DNA of 34,323 nucleotides from Chthonomonadales bacterium (lineage in GTDB: Bacteria > Armatimonadota > Chthonomonadetes > Chthonomonadales > CAJBBX01). Position numbers and translations under genes: made by a program. Each line of letters begins with the position of its first letter. The stretch's first letter is position 1. The notes under the pieces are model-generated. The model worked only from the letters and a program-made list of their open reading frames with translations, did no database searches and was not told the DNA's origin. The stretch spans positions 1 to 34,323 of the forward strand of contig JAAYVH010000094.1 in NCBI GenBank assembly GCA_012517255.1, read 5' to 3'. Below are positions 3,801-9,493 of the stretch, one piece after another.

Positions 3801-5129
3801 ATGCCGCGCCTGACGCAGTGTCTTTGCGTCGCCCTCGTCGTGGCCCTTTCGTTCCCGTGCGCAGCTCGCGCCGAGGATCCTGCCAGGGTGGAGCCGGCGG
3901 AGCAGCCAAAGGAATCCCCCGTTCGCATAGAGATCGGTCCCGAAGGCGTTTCGCTCCACGCGGTCGCCGTGGATGCCCATGAGGCGCTTACCGCCCTTGC
4001 CCGCCGCACGGGCCTGCGCATCATCGTGGACGACACGGTCCGCCGGAGCGTGACGGTTCACTTCGTCAACAAGAAGGCCACCGAGATTCTGGACGCCATT
4101 GTCGGCGCCTATGGCCTTTCATGCAAGGAAGTCAAGGGCATCTTCATGGTGAGCGAGGGCATTCCGCGCAGTCCCTCCTCCTATCTGTTGAGCGACATTG
4201 ATGCCATCACGACGCAGTATGTCCTTGCGCCCAATGCCAAGTCGCTGCTGCCCGTGTTTCTGCAGGACCACGTCAAGACGAACGCCGAGCAGAACGCCGT
4301 CATCCTGTCGGCTCCGACGGATGTGCTCAAGAAGTTCCGCGAGGACATCCAGCAGTTCGACATTCCGGCATCCCAGATACTGCTCGAGGTAGTCATGGTG
4401 GAGTTCACCGATACGGGCGCGCGCGAGTTCGGTCTTCGGTGGGACTGGGCCAACGCCGGCCGCCAGATTGCCGTGGATGCGCCGTCGGGCAGCGTCTTCT
4501 ATCACACGGTTGTGACGTTGCCGGATTCGTTCGGGGCTGAGCTCAGGGCGCTGGTCACTTCGGGCAAGGCCCGCATCAAGGCAAGCCCGCGCATCGCCAC
4601 CGTGAGCGGTCAGAGAGCCACCATCTTCATCGGCAAGCAGCGCTACCTGAGCACGCCGGTGGCGATCCCCCGCGGCGATGACGAGTACGGCGGCATGCGG
4701 CAGAGCAACGCCATAGATGCCGGCGTCCGCCTGATCATGACCCCGTTCACGGGCGGCCAGGGCGAGATCATTGTGGATGTGCGGCCGGAGATAAGCGTGT
4801 TGAGTGCGCCCGATCCCACCACCGGTCTGCCCGATCGGAGCACGCGCCGGGCCAACACAACCGTCCGGGTGCGCGACGGCGAGACGGTGATCATTGGCGG
4901 GCTCATGCAGGAGGAGTCGCGCAAGACCCGCACCCGAGTGCCGCTGCTGGGCGACCTGCCCATCATTGGCCCGTTGTTTCAGTCGGTCACCGATCAGGAG
5001 GCCACAACCGAGCTGGCGATCTTCGTGACGCCCCGCATCCTCTCTCAGACGGGCCGATTGCCCGCCGAGGAGGAGCGAAAGTACGAGGGGCTCCTCAAGG
5101 GCGGCGTCACCTCCGAGCAGCCGCGATAG
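3801..5129 (+). CDS. Secretin-like outer-membrane protein A (GspD/PilQ family)
   Basis: A 442-residue secretin-type protein, expected to form or contribute to an outer-membrane gate for a type II secretion or pilus-like machine. A signal peptide covers 1-24 (cleavage after AARA). An STN-like N domain spans about 50-118, a second N domain about 135-187, and the secretin core about 190-415. The conserved end of the core is complete: VRDGETVIIGGL at 357-368 and VPLLGDLPIIGPLF at 380-393. The ATG at 3801 has a perfect AGGAGGT 5 nt upstream. It is first of three tandem paralogues; the next starts 3 nt after its stop. It is shorter than classical GspD and has only two evident N domains. Oligomerisation is inferred from the family. 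Confidence 0.88.
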   Translation: MPRLTQCLCVALVVALSFPCAARAEDPARVEPAEQPKESPVRIEIGPEGVSLHAVAVDAHEALTALARRTGLRIIVDDTVRRSVTVHFVNKKATEILDAIVGAYGLSCKEVKGIFMVSEGIPRSPSSYLLSDIDAITTQYVLAPNAKSLLPVFLQDHVKTNAEQNAVILSAPTDVLKKFREDIQQFDIPASQILLEVVMVEFTDTGAREFGLRWDWANAGRQIAVDAPSGSVFYHTVVTLPDSFGAELRALVTSGKARIKASPRIATVSGQRATIFIGKQRYLSTPVAIPRGDDEYGGMRQSNAIDAGVRLIMTPFTGGQGEIIVDVRPEISVLSAPDPTTGLPDRSTRRANTTVRVRDGETVIIGGLMQEESRKTRTRVPLLGDLPIIGPLFQSVTDQEATTELAIFVTPRILSQTGRLPAEEERKYEGLLKGGVTSEQPR

Positions 5130-5132
5130 CCC

Positions 5133-6893
5133 ATGCTGTCGGTAATGACCGCGATCGGTGACGACGGAGGTCTCAGGCGCTGGCGCCTCGCGGCTGGTCT
5201 CGCCTGCCTGATGTTCGGCCTGCCTTCCGTCGCTCCGGCTCAGACACGCGCCTATTGCCACATCACGGCGATCGAGAAGGAGCGCCTCCCAAACGCGGTG
5301 CAGCTGACCATACGCGCCGACGGCCTCATGGCCACCGACGTCCAGTCGAGTCACTTTTTCAACACGGAAGCTTCGCGAGCCGGTCAATGGGAGCGCATGG
5401 GCAGGCGGATCACCGAGATACCCATCCGAATAACCAACGCTCGGTCGCGTGTCGGCAGCATCGCCAACGTCGGCATCTACCCGGTAAGCCACGTCGAGGT
5501 GACCGTGCCCCCCGATGCTCCTGAGGGGGTCGGGGTGAACGTCAACATCGTGCTGTACAAGTCGGCCGTCACGCGCGAGATCCGTCTGCCGGGAGACCGC
5601 TGGAACTTCTGGGGCGGCAACGAACCTCCGCCGTACATCAGCATCGAGATGGGGCAGGATCGGCGGTCGGTGGTGGTCATCGTGACGAGCGATCGGCCTA
5701 CGCCCACTCCAGAGCGACGACGCACGCCATCGGATCCTGAAGATCGGACCCTGGAAGTCAGCGCGAGTCGTGGTCTCGTCTCAATCTATGCGCTCGATGC
5801 CGACCTTCGCGATCTCGTGCGCGAGCTGAGCGCCGTGACGGGAGTCTCCATCACCGCGGCGGCTGACCTCGAGCGGACCGTGAGCATGTCGCTGGACTCG
5901 GTTGCTCTCGATGACGCTCTCGACTGCATCGCTCTCACGTACGGTGCGTCTGTCTCGCGCACGGGCCAGACCGTGCATCTTGCGGACGCTTCCATATCGG
6001 CGATGGCCGACTACCGCGCAAGCGAGATCGCCGAAATACCCCTGCGGTATCTGAGTCCGGAGGCGATCCGCAACAGCCTGCCCGATGTGCTGCTTGGCCA
6101 TGTCCGCATCAACGGAGGCCGGAACTCGATCACGGTGTCCGGTTCGGCCGCAATCATCGAGAAAGTGCGGGAGGATGTGGCGAAGCTCGACAAGCCCATT
6201 CCCATGATCGAGGTGTGCGCCACTGCGGTGGACTTCGACGATTCCGAGGATCTCAACGCCGTGATTCGGGGCAGACTGGCATGGCAGGGCGGGCTGGCGG
6301 CAGCCGGTACGGATCTCGGCGACATCACCTACTCCTCGATGGGGCCGGACGCTCCCGATCTGCAGGTCCTGCTGTCCGCCCTGATCGCCAGAGGACGCGC
6401 CCGGGTCCGTTCGGAAATGCGCAGCGTGGTTCTGAACGGCGAGACCGCGCGCCTGTTCGTAGGGCGCGAACAACGCATCGCCGCTCAGTTCTACGACTTC
6501 TGGAGTGAGGATCTGACGACGCGCATCATGACCCTGAGCGTCGGGACATCGCTCGAAGTCACGCCATGGACCGCCGGCAAGGGATCGGTCACGGCGGCTG
6601 TCAGAGCCGAAGTCAGCACCATCGCCTCGCGTGAGCGGGGAACGGGCAATCCGACCGTCGCCCAGCGTATGACGGATACGACGATTCGCCTCAGCGACGG
6701 CGAGACGCTCTACATCGGCGGGCTGGATGTGGATCAGCAGGGCGGAGTGGACCGGTCGGTCTTGCTGGGGGGCATCAGGATCCCCAGGACGCGCGGCGCG
6801 TCGGCCTCACGATTTGGCGTTTTCGTCACCATGCGCACGCTGCCGGGATCAACGACGGCTCGTGACGGTGCATCGGCTCACCACAAGGGATGA
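5133..6893 (+). CDS. Secretin-like protein B with AMIN-like N-terminus and degenerate C-terminus
   Basis: A 586-residue paralogue of its neighbours. A signal peptide ends around residue 37 (VAPAQ). Residues about 40-188 form a beta-rich AMIN-like domain (AYCHITAIEKERL start), which in related proteins binds cell-wall material. A Pro/Arg linker (190-207) leads to an STN-like domain (about 208-285), a second N domain (about 298-353) and a secretin core. The core keeps SDGETLYIGGLDV (521-533), but the usual VPxLGDxPxxGxLF block is replaced by VLLGGIRIPRTRGAS around 543-557. There is no good ribosome site at 5133, so translation is probably coupled to the gene ending at 5129. A start at 5145 is also possible. 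It may be a partner or regulator rather than a gate-forming subunit; that is inference. Confidence 0.8.
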   Translation: MLSVMTAIGDDGGLRRWRLAAGLACLMFGLPSVAPAQTRAYCHITAIEKERLPNAVQLTIRADGLMATDVQSSHFFNTEASRAGQWERMGRRITEIPIRITNARSRVGSIANVGIYPVSHVEVTVPPDAPEGVGVNVNIVLYKSAVTREIRLPGDRWNFWGGNEPPPYISIEMGQDRRSVVVIVTSDRPTPTPERRRTPSDPEDRTLEVSASRGLVSIYALDADLRDLVRELSAVTGVSITAAADLERTVSMSLDSVALDDALDCIALTYGASVSRTGQTVHLADASISAMADYRASEIAEIPLRYLSPEAIRNSLPDVLLGHVRINGGRNSITVSGSAAIIEKVREDVAKLDKPIPMIEVCATAVDFDDSEDLNAVIRGRLAWQGGLAAAGTDLGDITYSSMGPDAPDLQVLLSALIARGRARVRSEMRSVVLNGETARLFVGREQRIAAQFYDFWSEDLTTRIMTLSVGTSLEVTPWTAGKGSVTAAVRAEVSTIASRERGTGNPTVAQRMTDTTIRLSDGETLYIGGLDVDQQGGVDRSVLLGGIRIPRTRGASASRFGVFVTMRTLPGSTTARDGASAHHKG

Positions 6894-8605
6894 ACAGGCA
6901 TATGAGTTACCGACGGTACACGAGATGGAATGGCGAGAAGCATGCCGGAGTCCGGGGGGCTGCTTGCGGCCTGCTCCTGCTTCTTCTTTGCGCGGGCCGG
7001 CTCGACGCCCAGACCAGCGCCTACTGCAACATCACGGCGATCGAGAGCCAGCAGCTCAGCAATGGCGTCCAGATCACGGTGAAGGCCGATGGCGTGGTGG
7101 ATTGGGAGCCTGAAGGCGGCGACTGGAGCGTCTTCTATGGGGGCGAATCGAACCGGCTCACCATGCGATTCACCAACGCCAAGTCGCAGATCGGGCGAAC
7201 GTTCATTGATGTCAGCAAGTACCCGGTGAGCTACCTCCAGCTTTCCGTGCCGCAGGACGCCGTTGAGGGCGTTGGGCTGAAGATGCTCATCGGGCTCTAC
7301 GAGCCCTCCAGCGTCAACGTAAACCGCAGCACCGACCGCCAGTCGGTGGTGATCACGGTCAACTCCAAGCGGACGATCGCGGCCCGCGCCGCGGCGAACG
7401 GATCGAACGGCTCCAACGGCGGCTCGGCGCGCCAGGACGTCTAGGTCCGCGACGGCAAGGTGTATGTCCATGCACTTCGTGCGCGGCTCCTGCCCCTGTT
7501 GGCGCGTCTCGCCGAGCTGACGGGCGCCAACCTCGCAGCCGATGACTCGGTCAAGGACCGCGAAGTCTCGATGACCCTGGAAGGGCTGTCGCTGGATGAG
7601 GCGCTGACGGCCATCACCAGCGCCTATGGATTGGCCTACGTCCAGAGCAACGGCGTGACCATGATCTGCGACGGTACGCCGAACGACCTGGCGACCTATC
7701 GGCTGTCGGGCACTGAGTCGTTTCGCATGAAGTACATCAAGGCCCAGACAGCGTCGGGCCTCCTCCCCACGTTCCTCTACAGCTTCTTGCATGTCAACGA
7801 GGCTCAGAACGCGGTGGTGGTGACCGCGCCGGTCCAGATGCTCGACAAGATCAGATCCGACTTCACCAAGGTAGACATCGCGCCGCCTCAGATCATGATC
7901 GAGGCGCTGGCGGTGGAGGTCGCCTCGACCGACGATCTGAATGCCGCCCTGAGGACGAGCTACGAACACGACCACATAACCCTGGAGACGGACTCGGCGA
8001 CGGGCGACATAAGCTATCGCACCGTCGGCGAACTGCCCCATGAGTTCTTCGCCCATCTGAAGGCGCTGGTGGAGGCGGGGAGGGCGCGCGTGCGCTCGAA
8101 CCCGCGCATGGCGGCGGTCAACGGCCAGCAGGCCGATCTGTTCATCGGTCAAACCAAGTTCATCAAGGTGTCGGTCAACACGTCCGCGGGCAAGCAGGAG
8201 TACATCCAGGGGGTGGATGTGGGCGTCAAGCTGCAGGTTCGGCCCTGGACGGGCGGCAACGGCGAGATCACGGTGGGCATTCAGCCGGAAGTGAGCAACA
8301 TCAGTGAGCAGGAGCGGGAGACGGGTCTGCCCGTCATCTCGACGCGCAGGGCCGAGACCACCGTGCGCGTCAAGGATGGCGAAACGGTCATGATCGGTGG
8401 TCTCACGCAGCGACAGGATTACCGTACACGCACGAAGGTGCCCATCCTGGGCGACATACCCATTCTTGGCGCCCTGTTCCAGAGCGCCAAGACCAGCAGC
8501 GTCAACTCGGAGCTCGTGATATTCGTCACGCCCCACATCCTGACGGACCGTGGTCGGCTGCAGGATGACGCCAAGGAACAGGCCATCAGGGATCGGCTGA
8601 AGTGA
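6890..8605 (+). pseudogene. Secretin-like gene C, interrupted by an in-frame TAG at 7442-7444
   Basis: One frame from 6890 to 8605 encodes a full-length paralogue of protein B (571 codons), except for a TAG at 7442-7444 (codon 185). Before it are a signal peptide and an AMIN-like domain (AYCNITAIESQQL matches B closely). After it come an STN-like domain, a second N domain and an intact secretin core ending VKDGETVMIGGLTQ and VPILGDIPILGALF. Aligned to B, the TAG falls at a Ser in the linker, so TCG to TAG would explain it. The downstream part could start at GTG 7460, but the ribosome site there is weak and it would lack a signal peptide. The gene starts with an ATGA overlap with B. It may be a recent pseudogene, an assembly error, a readthrough gene or two split products. 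The domain family is secure; its functional state is not. Confidence 0.75.
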
Positions 8606-8655: not shown

Positions 8656-8674
8656 TGGTGTGAGGAACACACCA
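8656..8674 (+). other. Small hairpin in the leader of the prepilin gene
   Basis: TGGTGTG (8656-8662) and CACACCA (8668-8674) are perfect 7-bp inverted repeats around a 5-nt loop, about 30 nt before the ATG at 8705. There is no T-run, so it is not an obvious terminator. It could be a leader hairpin or protein-binding site. A TATAAC at 8642-8647 could be a -10 box, but no matching -35 was found. Confidence 0.35.
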
Positions 8675-8704
8675 ACGGATCATACCGAAAGGCGGTTATG
8701 CTCT

Positions 8705-9493
8705 ATGAAGCAACCTCGGCAGGAAGACGTGGCGGAGCGAGGCCGCTCGGCGGCCTTCACGCTGATCGAGTTGCTGGTGGTGATCGCCATCATCGCCATT
8801 CTAGCGGCAATCCTGTTCCCCGTTTTCGCGCAGGCGCGCGAGCGGGCACGACAGACTGCGTGCGTGTCGAACTCGCGCCAGCTTGCCCTGGCGAACTACA
8901 TGTACGCGCAGGACTGGAACGACACGTATCTGCCGTCCACCAACTACGCGACTCCGACGTCGGAGCCCACGCGGATCTGGCCGGCGATGATCCAGCCGTA
9001 CGTCAAGAACACGGGAGTGTTCCTCTGTCCGAGCGCGACGGGCGGCGGCTTTGCGGCCGACTGGTCGCTTCGCGGCATTGCGCCGATCGGCTACAACACG
9101 CGCGCTGGCTATGATCCTGGCGGTCTTGAGGCGCCGACCAGCGTGGCCGCCATGGCCGTCGTGGACGAACCGGCGCGCACGGTGCTCATGGCAGACACCG
9201 CCTGCGGCCCCAATAGCCTCAAGTATCGGGGCTATGTCTTCGATCCTATGAATGGCATCGAGAATGCGACGGACGTCCGACTTTCGACGCCGCTCGTAGC
9301 CGACAGGGATCTGGTGGCGGGAAGTCCGCTGACGCCCGGACAGCTCAAGCCGGTCTACTGCCGGCACTTTGCCGACGGCAACAACCGGGGCATGGCCAGC
9401 TTGATCTTCGCCGACGGGCATGCCAAGTCGTACTCGGCCGCCTCTATCCTGGCTCAGGACCGCGGAGCGAACCTGATCTGGCGGTTTCGATAG
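8705..9493 (+). CDS. Prepilin-like protein with type IV N-terminal methylation motif (DUF1559-like)
   Basis: A 262-residue secreted pilin-like protein. A 17-residue basic leader is followed by [16 protein letters not shown], the prepilin peptidase and pilin assembly helix. The residue before the Phe is Ala rather than the usual Gly. The globular part has the layout of DUF1559-type proteins, with CPSA near residue 110 and IFADGHAKS near the C-terminus. The canonical H-X9-DG has Asn where His is usual. Start at 8705 gives a normal short leader, with a weak AAAGGCGG 8 nt or more upstream; a GTG at 8660 would lengthen the leader. It lies directly after the secretin run, which suggests these genes serve one envelope machine. 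It may be a minor pseudopilin or a surface protein. Confidence 0.88.

Follow-up and report, generated by a model that had tools for sequence, protein, structure and literature searches.

A conserved three-gene secretin locus in Armatimonadota without linked filament machinery

Introduction

Why would a bacterium carry three secretin genes directly one after the other? To our knowledge, all secretins solved so far are rings of one repeated subunit, and all are linked to a secretion or pilus machine. In the initial annotation of a 34,323-nucleotide stretch of DNA from a Chthonomonadales bacterium (GenBank assembly GCA_012517255.1, contig JAAYVH010000094.1; the whole stretch is here called the window), three diverging secretin-like genes were described in tandem beside prepilin-like genes, and a mixed gate or variants of an envelope machine were suggested. 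The contig (label C244) is part of a 4.77 Mb Armatimonadota assembly. In a pattern scan of a genome collection, a MAG labelled Chthonomonas calidirosea was the closest named relative of the window genome. No paper on tandem, heteromeric or Armatimonadota-specific secretins was found among open-licence full texts, and the type II secretion system (T2SS) of Armatimonadota is covered by a general statement only (PMC6668835).

Gene structure and domain organization

The three genes, here named S1, S2 and S3, lie head to tail on the forward strand. S1 (positions 3801..5129, 442 aa) is preceded by an SD-like AGGAGG in front of its ATG and encodes, in this order, a signal peptide, an N0/STN-like domain, an N1/Secretin_N domain, the secretin core and a conserved C-terminal tail. 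S2 (5133..6893, 586 aa) encodes an AMIN-like front domain, N0, N1 and a degenerate secretin core, and S3 (whole extent 6890-8605) an AMIN-like front domain, N0, N1, secretin core and tail. S1 and S2 are separated by 3 nt, and the sequence ATGA (6890-6893) is shared by the end of S2 and the start of S3. Matches to the Pfam Secretin profile PF00263 were above cut-off for all three (S1 E 2e-40, S2 E 2e-17, S3 E 3e-46). The tandem arrangement and the near-zero spacing described earlier were borne out. By PF00263 and their N0/N1 domains, S1, S2 and S3 are classed as members of the secretin superfamily.

The PF00263 match of S2 was limited to profile positions 1-126 of 169, and its Secretin_N match had an E-value of 9e-10. 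Among relatives, PF00263 was matched by 34/34 S3 and 38/38 S2 proteins and Secretin_N by 31/34 and 32/38, respectively. STN/N0 was matched in some S2 and S3 relatives, with many matches below cut-off, and N0 and N1 were present in the S2 and S3 models. The AlphaFold monomer model of S2 had a pLDDT of 82 and a pTM of 0.67, and the overall confidence of the S3 monomer model was low (pTM 0.42).

S1 was found to lack a front domain, and those of S2 and S3 proved homologous (34% over 174 aa, E 3e-23), in agreement with the initial annotation. The name given to this domain stands less firmly. Pfam AMIN matched S3 in 8/8 members tested, but weakly (best E 5.5e-4), and the S3 of the window stayed below the curated cut-off. 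No Pfam AMIN match was obtained for the front domain of S2, and a PDB profile search for AMIN identity gave chance matches to viral hemagglutinin only. The designation AMIN-like is thus plausible but weak.

All three genes belong to the secretin family as first described, but S3 is not a single reading frame in the window. Its front part (6890..7444, forward strand, 184 aa), with the signal peptide and the AMIN-like domain, stops at an in-frame TAG (7442..7444, forward strand). The back part (7445..8605, forward strand, 381-386 aa) holds N0, N1, the secretin core and the conserved tail; it has no signal peptide, and its nearest in-frame start is a GTG at 7460. Front and back parts are continuous in S3 orthologues, and a same-genus relative (L007/L052) has an intact S3 with GAG at that codon. 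Recoding of the TAG was considered and rejected: TAG also terminates S1 and is therefore a stop codon here, and the relative from the same genus has GAG. S3 may be non-functional in this strain, or the TAG codon may come from an assembly error. A separate GAG-to-TAG difference, perhaps due to strain variation or assembly, interrupts S1 in a related MAG (L009:5576), and S3 is broken across two frames in locus L086. Single-gene lesions thus turn up now and then in these MAGs.

Distribution of the triplet

A total of 251 Armatimonadota genomes, mostly MAGs, were profile-searched, and gene counts were taken by hand from the listings. About 65-70 of the 251 genomes carried the triplet. Strong orthologues of S1 were found in about 65 genomes and of S3 in about 66, covering roughly 25 of 44 families, and mismatches between S1 and S3 presence were mostly at contig ends. 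Close relatives in the pattern scan came only from MAGs labelled Armatimonadota/Chthonomonas and from a few labelled Hebobacteria or Bacillota.

Thirty-eight triplets, that of the window and 37 fetched ones, were compared. The order S1-S2-S3 on a single strand was observed in 38/38 loci from many families, and a chance arrangement is therefore not at issue. It had been considered beforehand that relatives might carry only one gene at this locus; all three were present in every one of the 38. Median spacing was 90 nt between the stop codon of S1 and the first residue of S2 in the alignment, and 75 nt from S2 to S3 (38 loci). S2 was present with an open frame in every fetched triplet. Two genomes carried two triplets each (G172, contigs C21 and C221; G190, contigs C47 and C203). 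An exception was G109:C1 (L015), a single-contig gapped MAG of 81% completeness, in which 1.7 Mb separate S1 from a partial S3 and profile searches found no S2. This layout is either a true rearrangement or a scaffolding error.

Phylogeny and co-inheritance

The phylogeny of the three cores, proposed in the initial annotation, was built from 154 sequences with FastTree (LG). S1, S2 and S3 were each monophyletic (support 1.0, 0.91 and 1.0, respectively) with concordant gene trees, S2 and S3 were sisters (0.997) and the triplet clade as a whole had a support of 0.88. Further trees gave a similar picture. The monophyly of each gene and the sister relation of S2 and S3 imply that two duplications predate the spread of the triplet. 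The distance matrices of the three genes correlated with r values of 0.82-0.90, whereas the null did not exceed 0.24. All three trees also departed from taxonomy in the same places: the f1-g6 copy grouped with families f7/f15/f24, and the f14 copy with f5/f1. Concordant trees with shared departures would be expected of three genes that move together. As judged from the sequences, the triplet is kept, moved and duplicated as a single unit, apart from known secretion machines. The 38 loci, the trees and the selection analysis given below bear out the view that the triplet is real, old and retained as a unit.

Putative membrane-insertion motif

A motif with the consensus P-x-L-G-D-I-P-x-x-G-x-L-F was found in S1 as VPLLGDLPIIGPLF (4938..4979, forward strand), where it was interpreted as the amphipathic helical loop (AHL), and in the sequence of S3 as VPILGDIPILGALF (8438..8479, forward strand). 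In the S3 model it is flanked by the last long strands, and the corresponding motif of GspD aligns with it. Its position and conservation point to the AHL, which is reported for all secretins solved to date (PMC6532946) and described as starting the contact with the outer membrane (PMC6532946, PMC7545093, PMC10653833).

The motif was kept in 38/38 S1 and, by a strict pattern, in 33/38 S3, the five S3 exceptions being mostly truncated genes or misses of the strict pattern. S2 kept it in 11/38 by the strict pattern and in 12 by a slightly wider one, and the motif was absent from the S2 of the window and from 27/38 S2 proteins. The segment at the expected AHL site of the window S2 (6729..6800, forward strand, residues 497-520) lies in a low-confidence part of the model, with pLDDT below 50 at residues 501-520. 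According to parsimony, the S2 ancestor had the motif, which was then lost independently about four times. No segment of S3 is better conserved than the AHL (mean pairwise identity 0.66), and the corresponding region of S2 is among its least conserved (0.18); the best-conserved parts of S2 are N1 (0.38) and the front domain (0.31). With the motif kept in about a third of S2 lineages, non-insertion cannot be the general, original function of S2.

A C-terminal tail, TGHLP-x-EEE-...-RFL, is common to S1 and many S3 proteins (in the window, for example, at 5046-5126) and was absent from S2 and from the other secretins examined. It is a possible docking site for a pilotin-like factor.

Comparison with known secretins

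PilQ is the secretin that S1-S3 resemble most in architecture and fold. PilQ of the type IVa pilus (for example Vibrio cholerae PilQ, PDB 6w6m) corresponds in architecture to S2 and S3, with their AMIN-like front domain, N0, N1/N3 and secretin domains, and the same layout minus the front domain is that of S1; the number of AMIN domains in PilQ ranges from 0 to 3 (PMC7545093). Foldseek searches with the S2 and S3 models gave 6w6m as the best match (E 4e-15 for S2). However, the triplet lies outside any pilMNOPQ cluster in a genome that has a separate pilM-linked secretin, and it consists of three diverged tandem copies, one of them without the AHL. The best sequence matches were GspD chains of the type II system (5wq7, E 2e-43), with which the triplet shares the core domain and the AHL motif. 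In contrast to GspD, the triplet proteins have only one N1-type repeat, and no conserved gsp genes are linked to them.

None of the curated NCBIfam cut-offs was reached. Scores for S1, S2 and S3 were 148, 54 and 143 bits for PilQ (TIGR02515, cut-off 284), 157, 64 and 168 for GspD (TIGR02517, cut-off 351) and 94, 40 and 104 for SctC/YscC of the type III system (TIGR02516, cut-off 238), and they were far below all cut-offs for MshL, HofQ and the PilN-type (T4bP) secretins. By these curated models, S1-S3 are not PilQ, GspD, SctC, MshL or HofQ. A secretin that works without a type IV filament motor is known in pIV, used for filamentous phage export (PDB 7ofh, E 9e-31 to S3), but pIV is phage-encoded, homomeric and without an AMIN-like domain, and is partnered by other phage proteins.

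Proposed complex

The explanation favoured here, with a probability of about 0.45, is a co-produced three-part secretin complex in which S1 and S3 form the inserting pore and S2 is a wall-anchored, mostly non-inserting paralogue. S1-S3 would be read from a single transcript, and their products would assemble into a single compound exit complex in the outer membrane. As full secretins, S1 and S3 would be exported, form rings via N0 and N1 and insert into the outer membrane via the AHL and the beta-lip. Attachment of the complex to the cell wall would fall to the AMIN-like front domains found in S2 and S3. S2 has retained its front domain, the N domains from which rings are built and a beta core of secretin type, with the insertion motif gone in most lineages. 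It would not insert alone and is probably located in the periplasmic part or interleaved among S1 and S3 subunits. The cassette, having no motor or pilin of its own, could be motor-free or could rely on an inner-membrane machine whose genes lie elsewhere.

It is reasonable to read the locus as a compound gate, the more so given the co-inheritance of the three genes together with the specialised loss of the motif in S2. That S1, S2 and S3 act in one process is likely. That they share one ring is possible but rather doubtful on sequence evidence, and operon co-inheritance would also fit with three separate rings in one process. The homo-oligomeric make-up of the secretins solved so far likewise counts against a compound ring. 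Similarly tentative is the full combination of a hetero-oligomeric ring of three paralogues, one of them non-inserting, encoded by a mobile three-gene unit and working with no type IV filament motor.

Relation to pilus and secretion machines

The three proteins could instead be separate homomeric secretins, serving as alternative pores for existing type IV pilus (T4P) or T2SS machines and sharing their inner-membrane parts. Such machines are at hand, and the architecture of the triplet proteins (0 or 1 AMIN, N0, N1, secretin) is of the PilQ type (PMC7545093). The search for ATPase, GspF/PilC and PilM-PilO genes recommended in the initial annotation led to complete machines elsewhere in the window genome, but each has its own secretin: a pilM-linked one (pilQ) beside aroC and aroB on contig C284, one in a GspE/GspF/PilN-like/secretin locus (a third E/F system) on C166, and the gspD of a T2SS cluster on C326, which runs off the contig and has its apparent C-terminal half on C146. 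The genome thus probably has three machine secretins. The split in gspD (L137:1-1143, L049:8223-10208) is near a proline/glycine-rich repeat. Three tandem PilT-like ATPase genes were also seen on one strand (L140:7933-11411, G000:C182).

None of the T4P, T2SS or third E/F system genes was on the contig of the triplet, and no dedicated motor for the triplet was found. The idea that the triplet supplies a secretin lacking from a local machine was rejected, since none of the E/F clusters examined is without a secretin of its own. PF00437 T2SS/T4P ATPases were present in 250/251 genomes of the phylum sample. This is in line with alternative pores, but ATPases that are near-universal do not explain the patchy occurrence of the triplet, and about 70% of ATPase-bearing genomes are without it. 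Furthermore, machine-linked secretins fall outside the triplet clade, which is distinct from them in the tree, the insertion motif is missing from most S2, and genes for alternative pores would not have to be retained so strictly, all three and in a fixed order. Alternative pores are therefore considered unlikely as an explanation.

Nearest relatives of the triplet

The sister clade of the triplet (joint support 0.997) consists of 13 loci of single secretins. In most of them, the gene directly upstream of the secretin encodes an Ig-like/fn3-like protein of about 510-640 aa, weakly WxLIP/DUF916-like, and in several loci small secreted proteins are encoded upstream of the Ig-like gene. These operons (L135:8933-13696, L136:2071-7960, L163-L167, L170-L173) are conserved in Armatimonadota. 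No linked ATPase, GspF or prepilin was seen in them, so that the sister-clade secretins share with the triplet the lack of linked filament machinery; they differ from it in having one gene where the triplet has three, and in lying beside Ig-like and small secreted proteins. The layout of the sister-clade operon is chaperone-usher-like, with a secretin where the usher would be. Together, the triplet and its sister clade appear to stand apart from type IV filament machines.

No homologue of the Ig-like protein was found near a triplet, and it was absent from 15/18 triplet genomes tested, including that of the window. The Ig-like protein as a trans partner of the triplet was therefore rejected for most genomes.

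The absence of linked cargo, motor and pilin, the AMIN-like domains in two of the three proteins and the loss of the insertion motif in S2 could also point to a scaffold of secretin-fold proteins that anchors the outer membrane to the wall without exporting anything. A mere anchor would not need the complete core and AHL that are under strong selection in S1 and S3, however, and the sister clade, with its small secreted proteins, looks export-like. Anchoring without export is accordingly regarded as improbable.

Evolutionary rates and the status of S2

The initial annotation had raised the question of whether the extra copies show pseudogene-like substitution rates. S2 is the fastest-evolving of the three, with a mean tree depth of 1.74 compared to 0.70 and 0.77 for its partners. 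Values of dN/dS were 0.05-0.31 for S1, 0.02-0.31 for S3 and 0.09-0.48 for S2 (12 pairs for S2). S2 thus evolves 2-3 times faster than its partners (mostly, by dN/dS) under purifying selection. As its dN/dS is always well below 1, no pseudogene-like drift was observed.

These results bear on the idea that S2 is a decaying duplicate and that the working system is S1 with S3, or S1 alone where S3 is broken. The fast evolution of S2, the repeated loss of its signature motif and the interrupted S3 of the window are all in line with it. On the other hand, decay would be expected to have led to loss or breakage of S2 in some of the 38 lineages, but its frame is open in every fetched triplet, its dN/dS is that of a constrained gene, and the front domain, N domains and signal peptide are all retained. 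Decay of S2 is thus very unlikely.

Downstream prepilin gene

A DUF1559-type prepilin gene (8660-9493) follows S3 on the same strand after 54 nt. Its family was found in 5/38 loci only, on one side or the other and at varying distances, and none of the flanking gene families was common to the 38 loci (the contig of the same-genus relative L052 ends soon after S3). The link to prepilin genes drawn in the initial annotation thus did not hold, and a prepilin partnership was rejected by synteny. The triplet as an export gate for this prepilin in a local pilus system is largely refuted and hardly credible.

Significance

A three-part secretin complex remains the favoured explanation. If it is correct, secretins could form from unlike subunits, and some may work outside the known systems. 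The triplet is a widespread unit of three paralogues without a linked machine, in which one member loses the insertion element yet never disappears. It may offer a way into the largely unstudied cell envelope of the Armatimonadota.
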